This document shows positions 54,677 to 62,082 of a stretch of DNA of 64,000 nt, piece by piece (the first letter of the stretch is position 1; each line of letters starts with the position of its first letter). Source of the stretch: Kosakonia sacchari SP1 (GTDB taxonomy: Bacteria > Pseudomonadota > Gammaproteobacteria > Enterobacterales > Enterobacteriaceae); assembly GCF_000300455.3 (NCBI RefSeq), contig NZ_CP007215.2, forward strand, positions 3,286,001 through 3,350,000, written 5' to 3'. Both the position numbers and the translations under genes were made by a program. Below the pieces are notes generated by a model that saw only the letters and a program-made list of their open reading frames with translations, did no database searches and was not told where the DNA came from.

Positions 54677-55585
54677 ATGCGTAATCGCACACTTGCAGAC
54701 CTGGATCGTGTTGTCGCCCTCGGCGGCGGGCATGGCCTCGGGCGAGTGATGTCTTCGCTGGCCTCGTTGGGATCGCGGCTTACCGGCATTGTCACCACCA
54801 CCGATAACGGCGGTTCAACCGGGCGTATTCGCCGCTCTGAAGGCGGGATCGCCTGGGGCGATATGCGTAATTGTTTAAACCAGCTCATTACCGAACCGAG
54901 CGTAGCCTCGGCGATGTTTGAGTACCGTTTTAGCGGTAATGGCGAACTTTCCGGGCATAACCTCGGAAATTTAATGTTAAAGGCGCTCGATCACCTCAGT
55001 GTGCGGCCTCTTGAAGCGATCAATTTAATTCGCAATTTATTAAAAGTGGACGCGTTTTTAATCCCGATGTCTGAGCAACCGGTCGATTTGATGGCTACCG
55101 ACAGCGAAGGGCATCAGGTTTATGGCGAGGTCAACATCGACCAGCTTCATGCACCAATCCAGGAATTAATGCTGTTTCCAAAGGTCCATGCCACTCGCGA
55201 AGCGGTACAGGCTATCGCAGAAGCGGATTTGATTATCATCGGTCCAGGCAGCTTTTACACCAGCCTGCTACCGTTACTGCTGCTGGACGATCTGGCGCAG
55301 GCATTACGCCGTACACCCGCACCGGTCGTTTACATTGGCAACCTCGGTAAAGAACTCAGCCCCGCCGCCGCCAGCCTGACGCTGGCAGACAAACTGGCGA
55401 TTATGGAGCAGTACGTCGGCAAAAAAATCATTGATGCCGCCATTGTTGGTCCGAAAGTCGATACGCGGGATGTTAGCGATCGGTTAATCATTCAGGAAGT
55501 GCTGGAAGCCAGCGATATTCCCTACCGCCACGACCGGCATCTGCTGCGCGTAGCGTTGGAAAAAGCGGTGCAACATCTGGGTTAA
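54677..55585 (+). CDS. ybhK: YvcK/CofD-like gluconeogenesis factor (YbhK)
   Basis: A 302-residue cytoplasmic protein of the CofD/YvcK family. The nucleotide-sugar-binding N-terminus is [15 protein letters not shown], followed by [12 protein letters not shown]. Bacterial YvcK proteins bind UDP-sugars and are needed for growth on gluconeogenic carbon and for envelope integrity. It is divergent from moaA, as in E. coli, and shows the usual length. The next gene, eptA, is not its E. coli neighbour. Confidence 0.95.
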
Positions 55586-55594
55586 AACGCAGGC

Positions 55595-55616
55595 GGCGGG
55601 AATTTTTTCTCCCGCC
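55595..55616 (+). terminator. Terminator-like hairpin after yvcK
   Basis: The stem GGCGGGA / TCCCGCC (55595-55601 with 55610-55616) with a T-rich loop lies just after the yvcK stop, before the PmrA box. Confidence 0.6.
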
Positions 55617-55633
55617 AGCACTTTGCTTAATTT

Positions 55634-55650
55634 CTTAAGGTTGTCTTAAA
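55634..55650 (+). promoter_or_regulatory. PmrA (BasR) box of the eptA operon
   Basis: CTTAAG-N5-CTTAAA fits the PmrA direct-repeat consensus (YTTAAK-N5-YTTAAK) and lies 45 bp before eptA. The operon product BasR/PmrA should bind here, giving positive autoregulation. Confidence 0.85.
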
Positions 55651-55694
55651 AATCGGCTGTCAGCATAGCGCTACTTTCATTGCTGGATCCGAGT

Positions 55695-57338
55695 ATGCGT
55701 ATGCTTCACCTTCGTCGGCCAACCTTAAGCCGCCTCCACTTTATTCTGCTCTTTGCCGCTTATATTGCGCTGGGCCTGAATATTACGTTTTATCACCAGG
55801 CATTCATTTTATTGCCGGTGAACTCATTGCATAACTGGCTGGTTTTTCTCTCCATGCCGCTGGTCGCTTTTAGCGTCATTAATATTGTGTTGTCTCTGGC
55901 GTCGTTTGTGCGTCTTGATCGCCTGGTTATCTCACTCTTTGTGCTGGTGAGTTCGGCGGCGCAATATTTCATTTCGACGTTTGGCATTATTATCGACCGT
56001 TCGATGATCACCAATATTCTGGACACCACCCCGGCAGAAAGTTTCGCCCTGTTGTCGACAAAATTAGTGCTGACGCTGCTGCTGACAGGCATTCTGGCGA
56101 TAGCTATCGCCTGGTGGATTAAAATAAAACCGGCCCGCTCCGCGTTACGCAGTGTAATGTTGCGCGTTGCCAGCATCGTAATTTCTGTGCTGGTTATCGT
56201 GGCGGTGGCGTTGCTGTTTTATAAAGATTACGCCTCGCTGTTTCGCAATAATAAAGAGCTGGTGAAATCACTCAGCCCGTCAAACTCAATTACCGCGTCA
56301 CTTTCCTGGTATTCCCATAACCGCACCGCCAACCTGCCGCTGGTGAGAATTGGCGAAGATGCGCGTCAACGCCCGGAAATGCAGCACGGTCCGCACAAAA
56401 ATCTCACCATTCTGGTTCTGGGTGAAACCTCGCGTGCAGCGAACTTTTCGCTCGGCGGTTATGAGCGTGAAACCAACCCGTTGTTAAAACAGGATAATGT
56501 TATTTACTTCCCGAACACGGCTTCCTGTGGGACCGCGACCGCTGTCTCCGTACCGTGTATGTTCTCCGGCATGACGCGCGCCCATTATGACGATCAACTG
56601 GCGGCGCATCAGGAAGGGTTGCTGGATATTATCCAACGCGCCGGAATTAACGTGCTATGGAATGAGAACGACGGCGGCTGTAAAGGCGCGTGCGATCGTG
56701 TTCCGCATCAGGATATGACGCAATTAAACTTGCCGGATTACTGTATTAAAGGCGAATGCCAGGATGAGATCTTATTCCACGATCTCGCCAGTTATATCGA
56801 TAAATTGCAGGGCGACGGGATGATTGTATTACACACCATTGGCAGCCATGGGCCGACGTATTACAACCGCTATCCGGCGCAGTTCCGTAAATTTACACCG
56901 ACCTGCGATACCAATGAAATTCAGACCTGCTCACAGCAGCAGCTGATAAATACCTACGACAATACCATTTTGTATGTCGATTATATTGTTGATAAAGCGA
57001 TAAAATTGCTGCAATCGAAGCAGGATAAATTCACCACCAGCCTGGTTTATCTCTCCGATCACGGTGAGTCGCTTGGCGAAAATGGCGTTTATTTACACGG
57101 CCTGCCGTACTCCATCGCGCCGGAAACACAAAAACATGTTCCGCTGCTGATTTGGCTGTCGCAGGAGTATCAAGCGCGTTATGCCGTGAACAGCCAGTGT
57201 CTGCAAAAAAATGCGCGGGAGAAGGCGGTTTCACAGGACAACCTCTTCCCGACGATGTTGGGTATACTGGGTGTCAGCACGAAAGAGTACCGTGCTGAAG
57301 ACGATCTTTTAACCGCGTGCCGGGGGCAGTTGAAATGA
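55695..57338 (+). CDS. eptA: Lipid A phosphoethanolamine transferase EptA (PmrC)
   Basis: A 547-residue inner-membrane enzyme that adds phosphoethanolamine to lipid A, lowering affinity for polymyxins. Five N-terminal helices (to about residue 180) precede the periplasmic catalytic domain. The metal-site motifs are [18 protein letters not shown], the nucleophile Thr280 in [14 protein letters not shown], and [18 protein letters not shown]. Cys pairs for disulfides are conserved. ATG at 55695 gives the expected length; ATG at 55701 is an alternative. It overlaps basR and is preceded by a PmrA box. Confidence 0.95.
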
Positions 57339-58006
57339 AGATTCTGGTGGTTGAGGATGATGCTCTGCTGTTGCAGGGGTTGATTCTGGCGATGCAAAGC
57401 GAAGGGTACGCCTGCGATGGCGTTTCTACCGCACATGAAGCTGCGCTGTGTCTGGCGAACGGTCATTACAGCCTGCTGGTGCTCGATTTGGGTCTGCCGG
57501 ATGAAGACGGTTTACATCTGCTCACCCGATTGCGCCGCGAAAAATATACGCTGCCGGTATTGATCCTCACCGCCCGCGATACGCTTGAAGATCGCGTTGC
57601 GGGGCTGGATACCGGTGCAGACGACTACCTGGTTAAACCCTTTGCGCTGGACGAGCTGAACGCCCGCATTCGCGCGCTGCTGCGCCGCCATAATAATCAG
57701 GGCGATAACGAAATCAGCCACGGTAATCTGACGCTGAATGTAACACGCCGCCAGGCGTGGCTGGATGAACAGTTGCTGGAGCTGACGCCAAAAGAGTACG
57801 CCCTGCTGTCGCGCCTGATGCTGAAAGCCGAAAGCCCGGTACACCGGGAGATCCTCTATAACGATATTTACAACTGGGATAACGAACCGTCGACGAACAC
57901 GCTGGAAGTGCATATCCATAATTTGCGCGACAAAATCGGCAAATCGCGTATCCGCACAGTGCGTGGGTTTGGTTATATGCTGGTGCAACCGCAGGAACGG
58001 AGCTGA
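57335..58006 (+). CDS. basR: Response regulator BasR (PmrA)
   Basis: A 223-residue OmpR-type regulator activated by BasS in response to Fe3+, Al3+ or low pH. The receiver has the phosphorylation site Asp51 in [12 protein letters not shown] and Lys at LVKPF. The winged-helix output domain contains [36 protein letters not shown]. The start ATG at 57335 overlaps the eptA TGA (ATGA), so it is coupled. Two matching PmrA boxes in the window are its likely targets. Confidence 0.96.
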
Positions 58007-58009
58007 TTG

Positions 58010-59095
58010 ATGGCGCTCTTCAACTTCAGGCGCTGGAGTATGCGCCGCCGTTTGTTACTCACCATTGGTGGCATTCTGGTGTTTTGCCAGCTGGTCAGCG
58101 TGTTCTGGCTGTGGCATGAAAGCGAAGAGCAAATACAGCTGCTGGTGCAGGCAGCCATTCATAACCACAACAATCGCAAACATATCGAGCATGAAGTCCG
58201 CGAAGCGGTGGCCAGCCTGCTGGTACCAAGCCTGCTGATCATCGGACTGGCGCTGCTGCTCTGTATGCAGGCGGTAAAAACCATTACCCGTCCGCTGCTT
58301 GAGTTGCAGGAAGAACTGAATAAACGCACGCCGAACAACCTGCAACCCATCACGCTGAACAATAGCGTCAGCGAAGTGGAAGCTGTGACCTCATCGATTA
58401 ACGAGCTGGTCTCCCGCCTGACGCTAACCCTCGACAGGGAGCGATTGTTTACCGCCGACGTTGCCCATGAGCTGCGTACGCCGCTGGCCGGGTTACGTCT
58501 GCATCTGGAATTGATGGCGAAAACCAGCGGTATCAACGTCGACCCACTGGTGCAACGACTTGAGCAAATGACGGAAAACATTGCTCAATTGTTGCTGCTG
58601 GCACGCGTCGGGCAGTCATTCTCCGCCGGTAGTTACCAGCAGGTGATGCTGTTGCAGGATGTGGTGCAACCCATTCGCAGTGAACTGGAACAGATGCTGA
58701 CCGCGCGCCAACAGATGCTGGAAATTGCAGAGCCAGAAAAGGACATTGCGGTCGCCGGTGATGCCACGCTGCTGCGGTTACTGGTGAGAAACCTGGTCGA
58801 AAACGCCCACCGCTATAGCCCGACAGGATCGACCATTACCGTACGTATCGAAAACGCTGCAACACCGGTACTGGCGGTGGAAGATGAAGGGCCGGGTATT
58901 GATGAAAGCCGCAGCGGAGAGCTCAGTAAAGCCTTCGTGCGTATGGACAGCCGCTACGGCGGCGCAGGCCTGGGATTAAGCATTGTGTCGCGTATCGCAC
59001 AACTGCATGACGCGCAGTTCTTTTTGCACAACCGGCTGACGCAATCTGGCGTACGGGCGTGGGTAAAATTTCTCCCCGGTGCCCGCCAGGCGTAA
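58010..59095 (+). CDS. basS: Sensor histidine kinase BasS (PmrB)
   Basis: A 361-residue two-helix sensor kinase. The first helix is about 15-38. A short periplasmic loop follows, with HESEEQIQLL and acidic residues, then the second helix about 65-85. HAMP and dimerisation regions come next, with phospho-His153 in ADVAHELRTPLAGLRL. The ATPase domain has NLVENAHRYSP, DEGPGI and GGAGLGLSI boxes. It senses metal ions and acid through the short loop in its Salmonella relative. ATG at 58010 follows GGAGC and the basR stop closely. Confidence 0.95.
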   Translation: MALFNFRRWSMRRRLLLTIGGILVFCQLVSVFWLWHESEEQIQLLVQAAIHNHNNRKHIEHEVREAVASLLVPSLLIIGLALLLCMQAVKTITRPLLELQEELNKRTPNNLQPITLNNSVSEVEAVTSSINELVSRLTLTLDRERLFTADVAHELRTPLAGLRLHLELMAKTSGINVDPLVQRLEQMTENIAQLLLLARVGQSFSAGSYQQVMLLQDVVQPIRSELEQMLTARQQMLEIAEPEKDIAVAGDATLLRLLVRNLVENAHRYSPTGSTITVRIENAATPVLAVEDEGPGIDESRSGELSKAFVRMDSRYGGAGLGLSIVSRIAQLHDAQFFLHNRLTQSGVRAWVKFLPGARQA

Positions 59096-59096
59096 A

Positions 59097-59189
59097 TCAG
59101 TAAGTCAGCACCCACAGACGGGCAAAACCAATCACTAGCGCCAGCACGAAAGCGACAGCGAAAAACTCACGAACCTTAAATTGTTGCAT
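59097..59189 (-). CDS. 30-residue membrane peptide, PmrR-like candidate
   Basis: A complete small open frame on the strand opposite basS encodes a 30-residue peptide. It starts MQQFKVREFF, continues as one hydrophobic helix (AVAFVLALVIGF), and ends ARLWVLTY. An excellent ribosome site (GGAGGG) lies eight bases before the ATG, and a PmrA box lies further upstream. In Salmonella, PmrR is a 30-residue-class, PmrA-activated membrane peptide that inhibits LpxT and closes a feedback loop on lipid A modification. Size, topology, regulation and neighbourhood agree with that role. I cannot confirm sequence homology, so I give no symbol. It is too short for most gene finders. Confidence 0.75.
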   Translation of the reverse strand: MQQFKVREFFAVAFVLALVIGFARLWVLTY

Positions 59190-59233
59190 CAGATTGCCCT
59201 CCAGAATACCGGTGGGCAGTGTGTCAGGCGTAG

Positions 59234-59250
59234 GTTAAGCCAACATTAAG
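59234..59250 (-). promoter_or_regulatory. PmrA (BasR) box upstream of the 30-residue peptide
   Basis: On the minus strand CTTAAT-N5-CTTAAC matches the PmrA consensus at nearly every position. It lies 45 bp before the peptide ATG, the same distance as the eptA box from eptA. Confidence 0.8.
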
Positions 59251-59275
59251 AGAGCCCGGACAGGCTCTCTTTTTT
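59248..59275 (+). terminator. Terminator downstream of basS
   Basis: The stem AAGAGAGCC / GGCTCTCTT (59248-59256 with 59263-59271) is followed by TTTT. It ends the eptA-basR-basS transcript, and its left arm overlaps the PmrA box of the opposite-strand peptide gene. Confidence 0.88.
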
Positions 59276-59308
59276 GCTATTTTGTGCGGTCATATCACCG
59301 CGCTGATT

Positions 59309-61330
59309 TCAGGATGCGGCAATAAACAGATCGCGCAGCTGGTGCAACTGGTCGCGTACTTTCGCCGCCTCTTCGAACTCCAGGTTCTGCGCATGCTGCA
59401 TCATCTGGCCTTCGAGTTCGTGGATTTTCTGCTGCAGCGCTTTTGGTGTGAGCGCCAGTTCAGCCGCTTCCACCTGAGCAGGTGTACGCGTTTTACCACG
59501 CCCTTTCGCGCGCGTCTTCGCTAGCCCTTCGCCAAGCGCCAGAATATCCACCACTTTCTTGTTCAGGCCCTGCGGGGTAATGCCGTGCTCTTCGTTATAG
59601 CGTTGCTGTTTCTCACGACGACGCTCGGTTTCGCCAATCGCTTTCGCCATCGACGGTGTGATCTTGTCGCCATACAGAATCGCTTTACCGTTGATGTTAC
59701 GTGCCGCGCGGCCAATCGTCTGGATAAGTGAGCGTTCAGAACGCAAGAAGCCCTCTTTGTCGGCATCCAGAATCGCCACCAGCGAGACTTCCGGCATATC
59801 CAGCCCTTCACGCAGCAAGTTGATGCCGACCAGCACATCGAACTCGCCAAGGCGCAAATCGCGGATAATTTCCATACGTTCAACCGTGTCGATATCCGAG
59901 TGCAGATAACGCACCCGTTCGCCGTGCTCTTCCAGATACTCCGTGAGATCTTCCGCCATGCGTTTGGTCAGCGTCGTCACCAGCACACGTTCGTTAATGG
60001 CGGCGCGCTGGCGAATTTCAGAGAGCAAATCGTCCACCTGGGTCGCCACCGGGCGCACTTCAATCACCGGATCGAGCAGACCGGTCGGGCGCACCACCTG
60101 ATCAATCACTTCGCTGCCCGATTTCTCCAGCTCGTAATTGCCCGGCGTTGCCGAAACATAAATTGACTGCGGTGCCAGCGCTTCAAACTCTTCAAATTTT
60201 AACGGTCGGTTATCCAGCGCCGACGGCAGACGGAAACCATACTCCACCAGCGTCTCTTTACGCGCGCGGTCACCACGATACATCCCGCCGATCTGCGGAA
60301 TAGTCACGTGTGATTCGTCGATTACCAGCAGACCATCGGCGGGCAGGTAGTCGAACAGCGTCGGCGGCGGCTCGCCCGGCCCGCGCCCGGAAAGATAGCG
60401 CGAGTAGTTTTCAATCCCCGAGCAGTAGCCCAGCTCGTTCATCATTTCCAGGTCGAACTGGGTACGCTGGCTGAGCCGCTGCTCTTCCAGCAGTTTATTA
60501 TTTTCCAGCAGCGACTTACGGCGTTCTGCCAGCTCAACTTTGATCTCTTCCATCGCCTGCACGATCCGCTCGCGCGGCGTCACGTAGTGCGTTTTCGGGT
60601 AGATGGTGAAGCGTTGAATGCCCGACTCAATATGACCGGTCAGAGGGTCGAACAACGACAGGCGCTCGACTTCTTCATCGAATAATTCGATACGCAGCGC
60701 CAGATCGTCAGATTCTGCCGGGAACACATCAATAACTTCGCCGCGTACGCGGAAAGTGCCGCGCTGGAATGCCTGATCGTTGCGGGTATATTGCAGCTCC
60801 GCCAGGCGGCGCAGGATCGCGCGTTGATCGATGATCATGCCCTTAGTCAGGTGCAGCATCATTTTCAGGTAGAGATCCGGATCGCCCAGACCGTAGATCG
60901 CGGAAACGGAGGCCACCACAATTACATCGCGACGCTCCAGCAGCGCCTTCGTCGCTGACAGACGCATCTGCTCAATATGTTCGTTCACCGAGGCATCTTT
61001 CTCAATGAAAGTGTCAGAGCTTGGTACATACGCTTCCGGCTGGTAGTAATCGTAGTAAGAGACAAAATACTCCACCGCGTTATCCGGGAAGAACTCTTTC
61101 ATTTCACCATACAGCTGCGCGGCCAGCGTTTTGTTCGGTGCCAGCACCATTGTCGGGCGCTGGAGATCGGCAATCACATTGGCGACGGTGAAAGTCTTCC
61201 CTGAACCCGTCACCCCGAGCAGCGTCTGGTGCGCCAGGCCGTCTTCCAGACCTTCCTTGAGGCGGCGGATAGCTTCAGGCTGATCGCCGGAAGGACGAAA
61301 AGCGGAATTCAGTTTGAACGGTTTACTCAT
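59309..61330 (-). CDS. uvrB: Excinuclease ABC subunit B (UvrB)
   Basis: A 673-residue helicase-like damage-verification subunit of nucleotide excision repair. Walker A is [13 protein letters not shown] (about 39-51). The beta-hairpin that clamps DNA is [21 protein letters not shown]. Helicase motifs III-VI run to QTIGRAARN. The C-terminal UVR domain ([26 protein letters not shown]) contacts UvrA and UvrC. It is identical in length to E. coli UvrB, with a LexA box upstream. Confidence 0.98.
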
Positions 61331-62082
61331 GAACGGCTACCTGATGAAGGAATGAGCGGGCAGGTAACACATTTTACTCACCCTGTTCACTTTTGCCAAT
61401 AAATAACACTGGATGAAAAAACAGTAGCGAAACAGGCAATCTGTACTACTCCCCGTTAGGGCACCGCTTCTCCCCTCAAATTTCTGCGCGGACAAGATAA
61501 AACACTAACCCTTTCAGGTTATCCCCAAAATTTTTCCTCTTTTAACATTTGTCAAGCAAGCCTTTGAAAGTTTTGTGGCAGCGGGTGACACTTTTCTTAC
61601 AGGCATTGCTTTTATATAACCAATTGATTATTAAAGTTAATATCAAAAAGACGTGTTTAACACCAATTCAGGCGCAACCCGCGTCCTCTCTCGCTTGCCG
61701 CATGTTTTCTAACTCTAATACACAAGGTTATCCACAGGAATAGTGGATAACTGCCGCCAGGCCGGATGCCTAGCCTTCCCGCCAAATCCCATTTTGTCCC
61801 AGGCGGGTGGCGCTAAAAATTTATTATCTTTTCTTTTTGATAATTATCGGCAAACGAAACGCAGGATCCGCATGAGATCATTCTCACAGATCCAGCGATT
61901 GCTGCACCACAACTCAACACTGCAAGCACTGGCAAAGTGCAGAATTTTTACCTGGCTTCTTCCCTCCTCACGTTTTAAAAGCCACTTTTCTCAGCGGCAT
62001 CCGAAAAAAAAGCCTTTTTTATGTTCTGGCAAGCCTTTTGCAGAATCATCGTGGTCATCAGATCCGAAACAAGGAGCGGACA
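61331..62082. other. Long AT-rich gap between uvrB and the ABC gene, with DnaA-box-like sites
   Basis: These 752 bases hold no open frame I would support. Besides the LexA box, a perfect DnaA box TTATCCACA (61728-61736) forms an inverted repeat with GTGGATAA (61743-61750). A near-match TTATCCCCA lies at 61520-61528. E. coli uvrB has a distal promoter linked to a DnaA box, so these may belong to uvrB. The stretch from about 61800 to 62040 is AT-rich with poly-A and poly-T tracts and no recognised motif. Confidence 0.6.
61407..61426 (-). promoter_or_regulatory. LexA box of uvrB
   Basis: On the minus strand TACTGTTTTTTCATCCAGTG is nearly the known E. coli uvrB SOS box, 77 bp before the start. 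Confidence 0.9.

Follow-up and report, generated by a model that had tools for sequence, protein, structure and literature searches.

A probable Kosakonia orthologue of the membrane peptide PmrR with its own PmrA box and a predicted leader hairpin at its ribosome site

Introduction

What does the short reading frame that points into the tail of basS in Kosakonia encode, and which transcripts lead to its translation? The frame lies in Kosakonia sacchari SP1, within a 64,000-nucleotide stretch of contig NZ_CP007215.2 (positions 3,286,001 to 3,350,000) that was analysed as a whole and is called the window here. Enteric bacteria adjust the charge of their outer surface with the help of the known membrane peptide PmrR. 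For E. coli and Salmonella, the literature, as far as its text was available, states that PmrR binds and inhibits LpxT. An initial annotation of the window had read the frame either as a PmrR-type feedback peptide or as a new peptide in the same circuit. Our analysis leads us to a reading that we hold with high confidence: pmrR of the Kosakonia species would be expressed from a PmrA-started mRNA and yield an inner-membrane helix that holds back LpxT, so that the 1-phosphate is left for EptA.

Results

A short frame under purifying selection converges on basS

Three genes of the circuit are encoded on the plus strand of the window: eptA (pmrC, 55695-57338, with an alternative start at 55701), the response regulator gene basR (pmrA, 57335-58006), which has a DNA match to E. 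coli basR, and the sensor kinase gene basS (pmrB, 58007-59095), which is 63% identical to its E. coli counterpart. BasS of the window is 98% identical to that of Kosakonia pseudosacchari, the nearest named locus among the matches listed. An intrinsic-terminator-like site follows the eptA-basRS genes at 59248-59275 (plus strand). The block is flanked by a minus-strand gene at 59309-61330, which we take to be uvrB, and by a gene at its other side that is presumably ybhK.

The pmrR coding frame occupies 59097-59189 on the minus strand, stop codon included (ATG at 59189, stop at 59099-59097), and encodes 30 amino acids, MQQFKVREFFAVAFVLALVIGFARLWVLTY. As read from the sequence, a peptide of about 30 residues with one hydrophobic stretch would form a putative single membrane helix. 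The Shine-Dalgarno sequence GGAGGG lies at 59197-59202 (minus strand), 7 nt before the ATG, and its AGG is nearly invariant among aligned pmrR leaders. The minus-strand frame for a single-helix peptide with a GGAGGG ribosome site was thus correctly called in the initial annotation. Its position opposite basS is likewise borne out: the two genes are convergent and stand tail-to-tail without overlap, one base apart, with the basS stop ending at 59095 and the pmrR stop beginning at 59097.

In close relatives, frame and exact PmrA box are intact in 15 of 15 Kosakonia genomes searched. For 15 distinct sequences from the genus and from L003, a row that bears another genus code, dN/dS of the pmrR frame is 0.17, while the other two reading frames give 1.5 and 4.1 (13 distinct sequences). 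Three further groups yield 0.15, 0.21 and 0.30 for pmrR; values of 0.15-0.30 in four groups indicate that the frame is under purifying selection.

The PmrA box and the spacing of the promoter

The PmrA box claimed for the peptide gene (CTTAATGTTGGCTTAA) is found at 59250-59235 on the minus strand, 45 nt before the ATG, and a putative -10 element, CACACT, follows 11 nt after it at 59218-59223 (minus strand) with A-11 and T-7 in place. The box of eptA, CTTAAGGTTGTCTTAA, lies at 55634-55649 on the plus strand. That it stands at the same 45-bp distance from its gene holds if eptA starts at the ATG at 55695 (45 nt) and fails for the ATG at 55701 (51 nt); since eptA has these two candidate start codons, the equality depends on the start chosen. 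The annotated start of E. coli eptA is 47 nt from its box. Positions 59248-59250, with which the pmrR box begins, belong on the opposite strand to the 5' end of the terminator-like stem that follows basS.

Within the window, CTTAA-N6-CTTAA is matched at exactly two sites, before pmrR and before eptA, where 0.07 would be expected, and none of 100 shuffles reached two. Across the 4.9-Mb genome there are 11 such sites and 7 for the reversed-pattern control; among the 11, only the pmrR and eptA boxes read CTTAA[T/G]GTT on the matched strand. A third genomic site, before a ybjG-like gene, gives CTTAA[T/G]GTT when read on the other strand. This third PmrA-box-like site, TTAAGGTTCACTTAAG, lies in locus L018, about 101 nt before a PAP2 reading frame at 1264-1926, which we take to be the ybjG-like gene. 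In the available text of one study, E. coli ybjG is named as a PmrAB target (PMC7559476).

The geometry is conserved well beyond the genus. In 84 loci the pmrR box stands 41-46 nt before the ATG, 68 of these boxes being exact and 16 carrying one mismatch. Of 81 pmrR leaders, 80 keep A-11 together with T-7 at 11 nt from the box, as do 97% of 99 eptA leaders, and the spacing is retained also in Pantoea-type leaders that have no stem.

Profile homology links the peptide to PmrR

Aligned directly, the Kosakonia peptide is 31% identical to E. coli PmrR. Because this identity is so low, we tested homology with a profile from which E. coli was left out. This ten-row profile placed 13 of 13 PmrR frames of the E. 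coli, Citrobacter and Salmonella type above all other reading frames among 2,772, with E values of 6e-8 to 4e-4 and the next frame at 3.4; compared in this way, the peptides of Salmonella and E. coli rank first. Intermediate sequences link the Kosakonia and E. coli peptides, with F and W invariant throughout. Searches with the Kosakonia peptide as a single sequence recovered no E. coli-type pmrR; across the family they gave matches in 15 of 149 genomes at E<=1, five of which (L010, L011, L014, L015 and L016) were dropped as chance matches in which no box was shown. The peptide has no match in Pfam or NCBIfam, Rfam returned nothing within 55000-62000, and a plasmid search gave no match.

At the equivalent place, the annotation of the E. 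coli locus carries an 'LpxT activity modulator PmrR' with its box 45 nt from the ATG. In E. coli (WP_000797657.1) and Salmonella, as in Kosakonia, pmrR converges with the 3' end of pmrB, has its own PmrA box 45 nt before the ATG, a -10 element at equal spacing and a leader hairpin, and encodes one hydrophobic stretch with a C-terminal W-x-x-[TS]-[YFW]. The E. coli peptide has 29 residues and that of Kosakonia 30; E. coli pmrR overlaps pmrB (basS) by 25 bp, whereas the Kosakonia genes do not overlap; and the Kosakonia locus lies between ybhK and uvrB, that of E. coli and Salmonella between adiC and proP. E. coli pmrR, its overlap with pmrB and its PmrA box are described in the accessible part of PMC8129183, and according to an excerpt of PMC13405929, E. 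coli B populations that had undergone selection with iron(III) showed raised pmrR RNA together with that of eptA and of arn genes.

Because gene position, a PmrA box of its own 41-46 nt before the ATG, and homology by profile coincide, the frame at 59097-59189 (minus strand) is, on well-supported sequence grounds, the Kosakonia orthologue of E. coli and Salmonella PmrR and adds a member to this known family. Of the two readings in the initial annotation, locus, box, spacing and profile homology speak for the PmrR-type peptide; the new peptide in the same circuit was not borne out, the peptide being PmrR by locus, box and profile.

LpxT and competing readings of the peptide

The genome holds four PAP2 genes, one of which is the lpxT candidate (70.5% DNA identity to E. 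coli lpxT over 93%), flanked by what we take to be yeiR-like and mepS-like genes. At E<=1e-20, 240 of the 392 family genomes gave an lpxT match. Among 80 basS genomes, taken from 211, all 42 that bear pmrR have lpxT, and the three in which lpxT was not found (G084, G213 and G145) have no pmrR. Among the loci that lack pmrR, L080 and L081 come from genomes with no lpxT match. This co-occurrence reflects one or two events, a number too small for a test, and is only consistent with LpxT as the target.

A different small membrane peptide might occupy the same place under a PmrA promoter and act on another target, such as BasS, EptA or another lipid A enzyme. The low identity to E. coli PmrR and the silence of the Pfam and NCBIfam models would fit this, as would the retention of lpxT in many genomes without pmrR (among them those of L077, L078, L090 and L113). 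We nevertheless consider it very unlikely, given that a profile built without E. coli recovers the E. coli-, Citrobacter- and Salmonella-type peptides, that the series of intermediates keeps F and W invariant, and that leader hairpin and promoter geometry are common to both groups. That reading frame and box are both products of chance has a practically negligible probability: conservation in 15 of 15 genomes, dN/dS and a box count above expectation refute it, and we found no point in its favour.

Distribution of pmrR and mobility of the block

We examined 161 basS loci, composed of 80 of the 211 basS genomes, the best 80 further loci and one from E. coli; some genomes are present under two identifiers, and one false match (L134) was dropped. 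Box and reading frame are present in 84 of these 161 loci and in 79 of the 102 in which BasS is at least 60% identical. Named loci with PmrR belong to Kosakonia, the Klebsiella oxytoca group, Kluyvera, Phytobacter, Pseudocitrobacter, Trabulsiella, Pluralibacter, Pantoea and Tatumella. Despite a close BasS, pmrR and box are absent between basS and uvrB in L077/L078/L082/L157 (Superficieibacter type), L080/L081, L086 and L090/L091/L095, probably owing to loss. PmrR is thereby extended beyond E. coli and Salmonella, with absence found in several sister genera, and the profile can find a peptide that is too short for the Pfam and NCBIfam libraries used.

In most loci of the Kosakonia, Klebsiella and Kluyvera type, the eptA-basRS-pmrR block lies between ybhK and uvrB; in L087/L162, L094, L098 and L102 ybhK is present and uvrB is further off or unseen. 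The block adjoins proP in loci of the E. coli, Salmonella and Citrobacter type, most of which have adiC at the other side. The block (55634-59250 in the window), peptide included, has moved as one unit between uvrB-type and proP-type sites. PmrR-like frames with a PmrA box were also seen in the 3-kb Pantoea-type loci L255, L265, L276 and L278, where no basS was found, that of L265 standing beside an eptA-like frame, and second PmrR-like matches occur in genomes G318, G481, G490, G448 and G252. These Pantoea-type frames and second matches are possible copies of pmrR away from pmrAB.

A leader hairpin that contains the ribosome site

Between box and start codon, a hairpin that the initial annotation does not mention is predicted, with its 5' arm at 59209-59218 (minus strand), overlapping the last base of the -10 element, and its 3' arm at 59195-59204 (minus strand), which contains the Shine-Dalgarno sequence. 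Folding energies of the pmrR leaders have z < -2 in 64 of 81 distinct leaders (median -3.3). The window's leader, which L025 shares, is among the weaker ones, with a z of -2.55 and a stem score of 7.5 (p 0.023). A stem score >=7 is reached in 60 of 81 pmrR leaders versus 4 of 73 eptA leaders that served as control; these 73 were the leaders among 99 with a start 36-60 nt from the box, and 26 were left out. The pmrR leader sets used for (i) folding and covariation and (ii) stem score and eptA control both have n=81 and differ in part.

In the register of the E. coli stem, 77.9% of alignment cells pair, and 108 cells are changed on both sides of the stem versus 53.9 (sd 5.0) in shuffles, a number reached in 0 of 500, figures for pairing and both-side change that are inflated by relatedness; slid registers give 14-54 such cells. 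Two of five covariation measures, those least inflated by relatedness, are not clearly above shuffles: pairs with a double change (9 versus 7.0; 33 of 500 as high) and pair types (27 versus 24.6; 68 of 500 as high). RNAalifold on the whole leader alignment kept only 6 pairs at -0.4 kcal/mol, probably because the Phytobacter rows are out of register and the Pantoea-type rows have no stem. In view of these unclear measures and the weak consensus fold, we counted pair-keeping changes on a tree. On the BasS tree, 11 branches carry a pair-keeping double change versus a mean of 3.4 for re-paired columns (2 of 2,000 as high), and slid registers give 0-5 such branches; single changes in the stem break the pair in 89 cases and keep it in 48. 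Folding, eptA control and tree count together support conserved base pairing in the leader.

Which transcripts would carry the full stem

Across the leaders, the 5' arm either overlaps the -10 element or lies directly beside it. The conserved A-11 and T-7 at 11 nt after the box would put the transcript start within the end of the 5' arm or 3' to it; in the window it is predicted at about 59210-59211 (minus strand), inside the 3' end of that arm. We infer that the PmrA-started transcript begins near the loop, and likewise the start, strand and function of the hairpin. With a start near the loop, most of the 5' arm would be missing, so that the full stem would form only in RNA that enters from upstream. 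The predicted probability that the ribosome site is unpaired has a median of 0.00 in the long RNA versus 0.34 in the short RNA (81 leaders); for the window's leader the change is smaller, from 0.17 to 0.34.

These features suggest the following sequence of events, in which PmrA activation, binding and inhibition of LpxT, and feedback are carried over to Kosakonia by analogy with E. coli and Salmonella. BasS (PmrB) would phosphorylate BasR (PmrA), which would occupy the box at 59235-59250, and a short mRNA would start from the -10 element eleven bases on. Devoid of most of the 5' arm, this RNA would be translated, and the 30-residue peptide would place one helix in the inner membrane and hold back LpxT, leaving the lipid A 1-phosphate free for EptA; the lower surface charge would in turn lower the Fe3+ signal. 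Read-through RNA from uvrB would carry both arms of the hairpin, hide the ribosome site and be poorly translated. The chances appear to us evenly balanced that pmrR is insulated by its own leader in this way, with only PmrA-begun transcripts translated and read-through from uvrB, proP and other neighbours silent.

uvrB reads towards pmrR and is a possible source of read-through: on the minus strand of 58900-59500 the consensus scan found no terminator, and it placed terminators in the plus direction only. With a looser script, the stem of the basS terminator, which in the minus direction is followed by TTAATGTTG, scored as possibly a weak terminator of uvrB; a hairpin followed by TTAATGTTG could be such a terminator and would count against the read-through layer. 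For E. coli pmrR, SEnd-seq showed that transcription of the upstream gene terminates inside the frame (PMC10687069, available text); by gene order, the upstream gene is taken to be proP.

A rule by which the hairpin accompanies an upstream gene that reads into pmrR was formulated once the leaders had been seen, inspected in 28 loci and then counted on all leaders with enough flanking sequence. From 83 rows, two false matches (L134 and one row of L152) were dropped. In the remaining 81, hairpin and a codirectional neighbour coincide in 61, a hairpin faces an opposite neighbour in 2 (L102 and L237), neither hairpin nor codirectional neighbour is present in 10, and 8 have a codirectional neighbour and no hairpin (L088, L093/L158, L130, L228, L229, L232, L239 and L187); the direction of L187 is probably miscalled, as it is 93% identical to L185. 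On a BasS tree of 73 rows, orientation changes three times, which leaves 2-3 independent pairs and therefore no significance for the rule. A further 30 rows, many from repeat genomes, comprise 3 with hairpin and codirectional neighbour, 3 with hairpin and opposite neighbour, 4 with no hairpin and a codirectional neighbour, and 20 with no hairpin and an opposite neighbour; L250, L252 and L265 (the locus of L237) combine a hairpin with an opposite neighbour and are counterexamples. Lacking tree significance and faced with these counterexamples, the rule was set aside as proof of a read-through role.

Other roles for the hairpin

The structure could instead serve the convergent basS (pmrB) mRNA as a 3'-end element, its overlap with the pmrR ribosome site being secondary, a reading that we regard as somewhat unlikely and that draws on experiments in E. 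coli (PMC8004244, available text). Inserts that extended 34 or 86 bp past pmrB conferred no colistin resistance there, 103 bp conferred partial and 126 bp full resistance; lipid A carried the modification at 103 and 126 bp and lacked it at 86 bp, and the level of pmrB mRNA at 86 bp was about 315-fold below that at 126 bp. Mapped onto the leader, the primer ends of that study fall at the loop and first base of the 5' arm (+87), beyond both arms and the -10 element, which are taken in (+104), and at the distal border of the PmrA box (+126), and its authors predicted stem-loops in the pmrB sense. Against this reading stand the unchanged half-life of pmrB mRNA and its highest level from the pmrB reading frame alone in the same study, a stem that in the basS sense has no following T tract in the leader profile, and the terminator-like site of the window, which lies further on than the stem. 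A strand test on wobble pairs (G-U versus A-C) counted left-side transitions in 43 of 284 cases opposite G and in 18 of 127 opposite A. Increased pmrB expression from constructs in E. coli BL21 required the pmrR region, a result that the authors found to misfit the feedback model; they mention PmrR, and the text available links no stem to its ribosome site (PMC8004244). Their data suggest that the element matters and do not indicate the strand.

Alternatively, PmrA-started mRNA might begin further upstream and itself contain the hairpin, which would control pmrR translation as an RNA thermometer or as a sensor of ions. The strong stems in which the ribosome site is hidden would suit such a role, and a mapped pmrR start was not found in the parts of the literature searched; the A-11/T-7 spacing, kept in pmrR, eptA and stemless Pantoea-type leaders alike, argues against the earlier start, and we consider this reading quite improbable. 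The literature searched, as far as its text was available, gave no account of a pmrR leader hairpin; an account of the start site or of the stem may be contained in Kato 2012, the principal paper on Salmonella.

Discussion

If the hairpin works as proposed, the silencing of read-through would explain why a gene of 30 codons, located about 110-120 bp downstream of proP (in E. coli) or uvrB, stays silent where no strong terminator intervenes. It would also provide a testable interpretation of the finding in E. coli that lipid A modification is controlled by the sequence just past pmrB.

Such a mechanism has relatives. For I-TevI of phage T4, the available text of PMC2988022 describes a ribosome site that is hidden in RNA started upstream, while a late promoter leaves out part of the structure; sequestration of the ribosome site is named there also for T4 soc and e. 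The T4 genes are phage genes timed by early and late transcription, whereas pmrR belongs to a bacterial two-component regulon and the effect on it is a proposed one. If true, it would place a T4-type start-site switch in such a regulon, across a range that takes in E. coli, Salmonella, Kosakonia, Klebsiella and Tatumella. B. subtilis sigG is the closer case in being chromosomal: as far as the accessible text goes, a proposed large hairpin blocks translation of read-through RNA and cannot form from the gene's own promoter (PMC5942855). It differs in encoding a sporulation sigma factor, in a stem of at least 20 pairs and in an upstream operon that belongs to the same programme (PMC5942855), whereas uvrB and proP, the genes upstream of pmrR, are unrelated to it.
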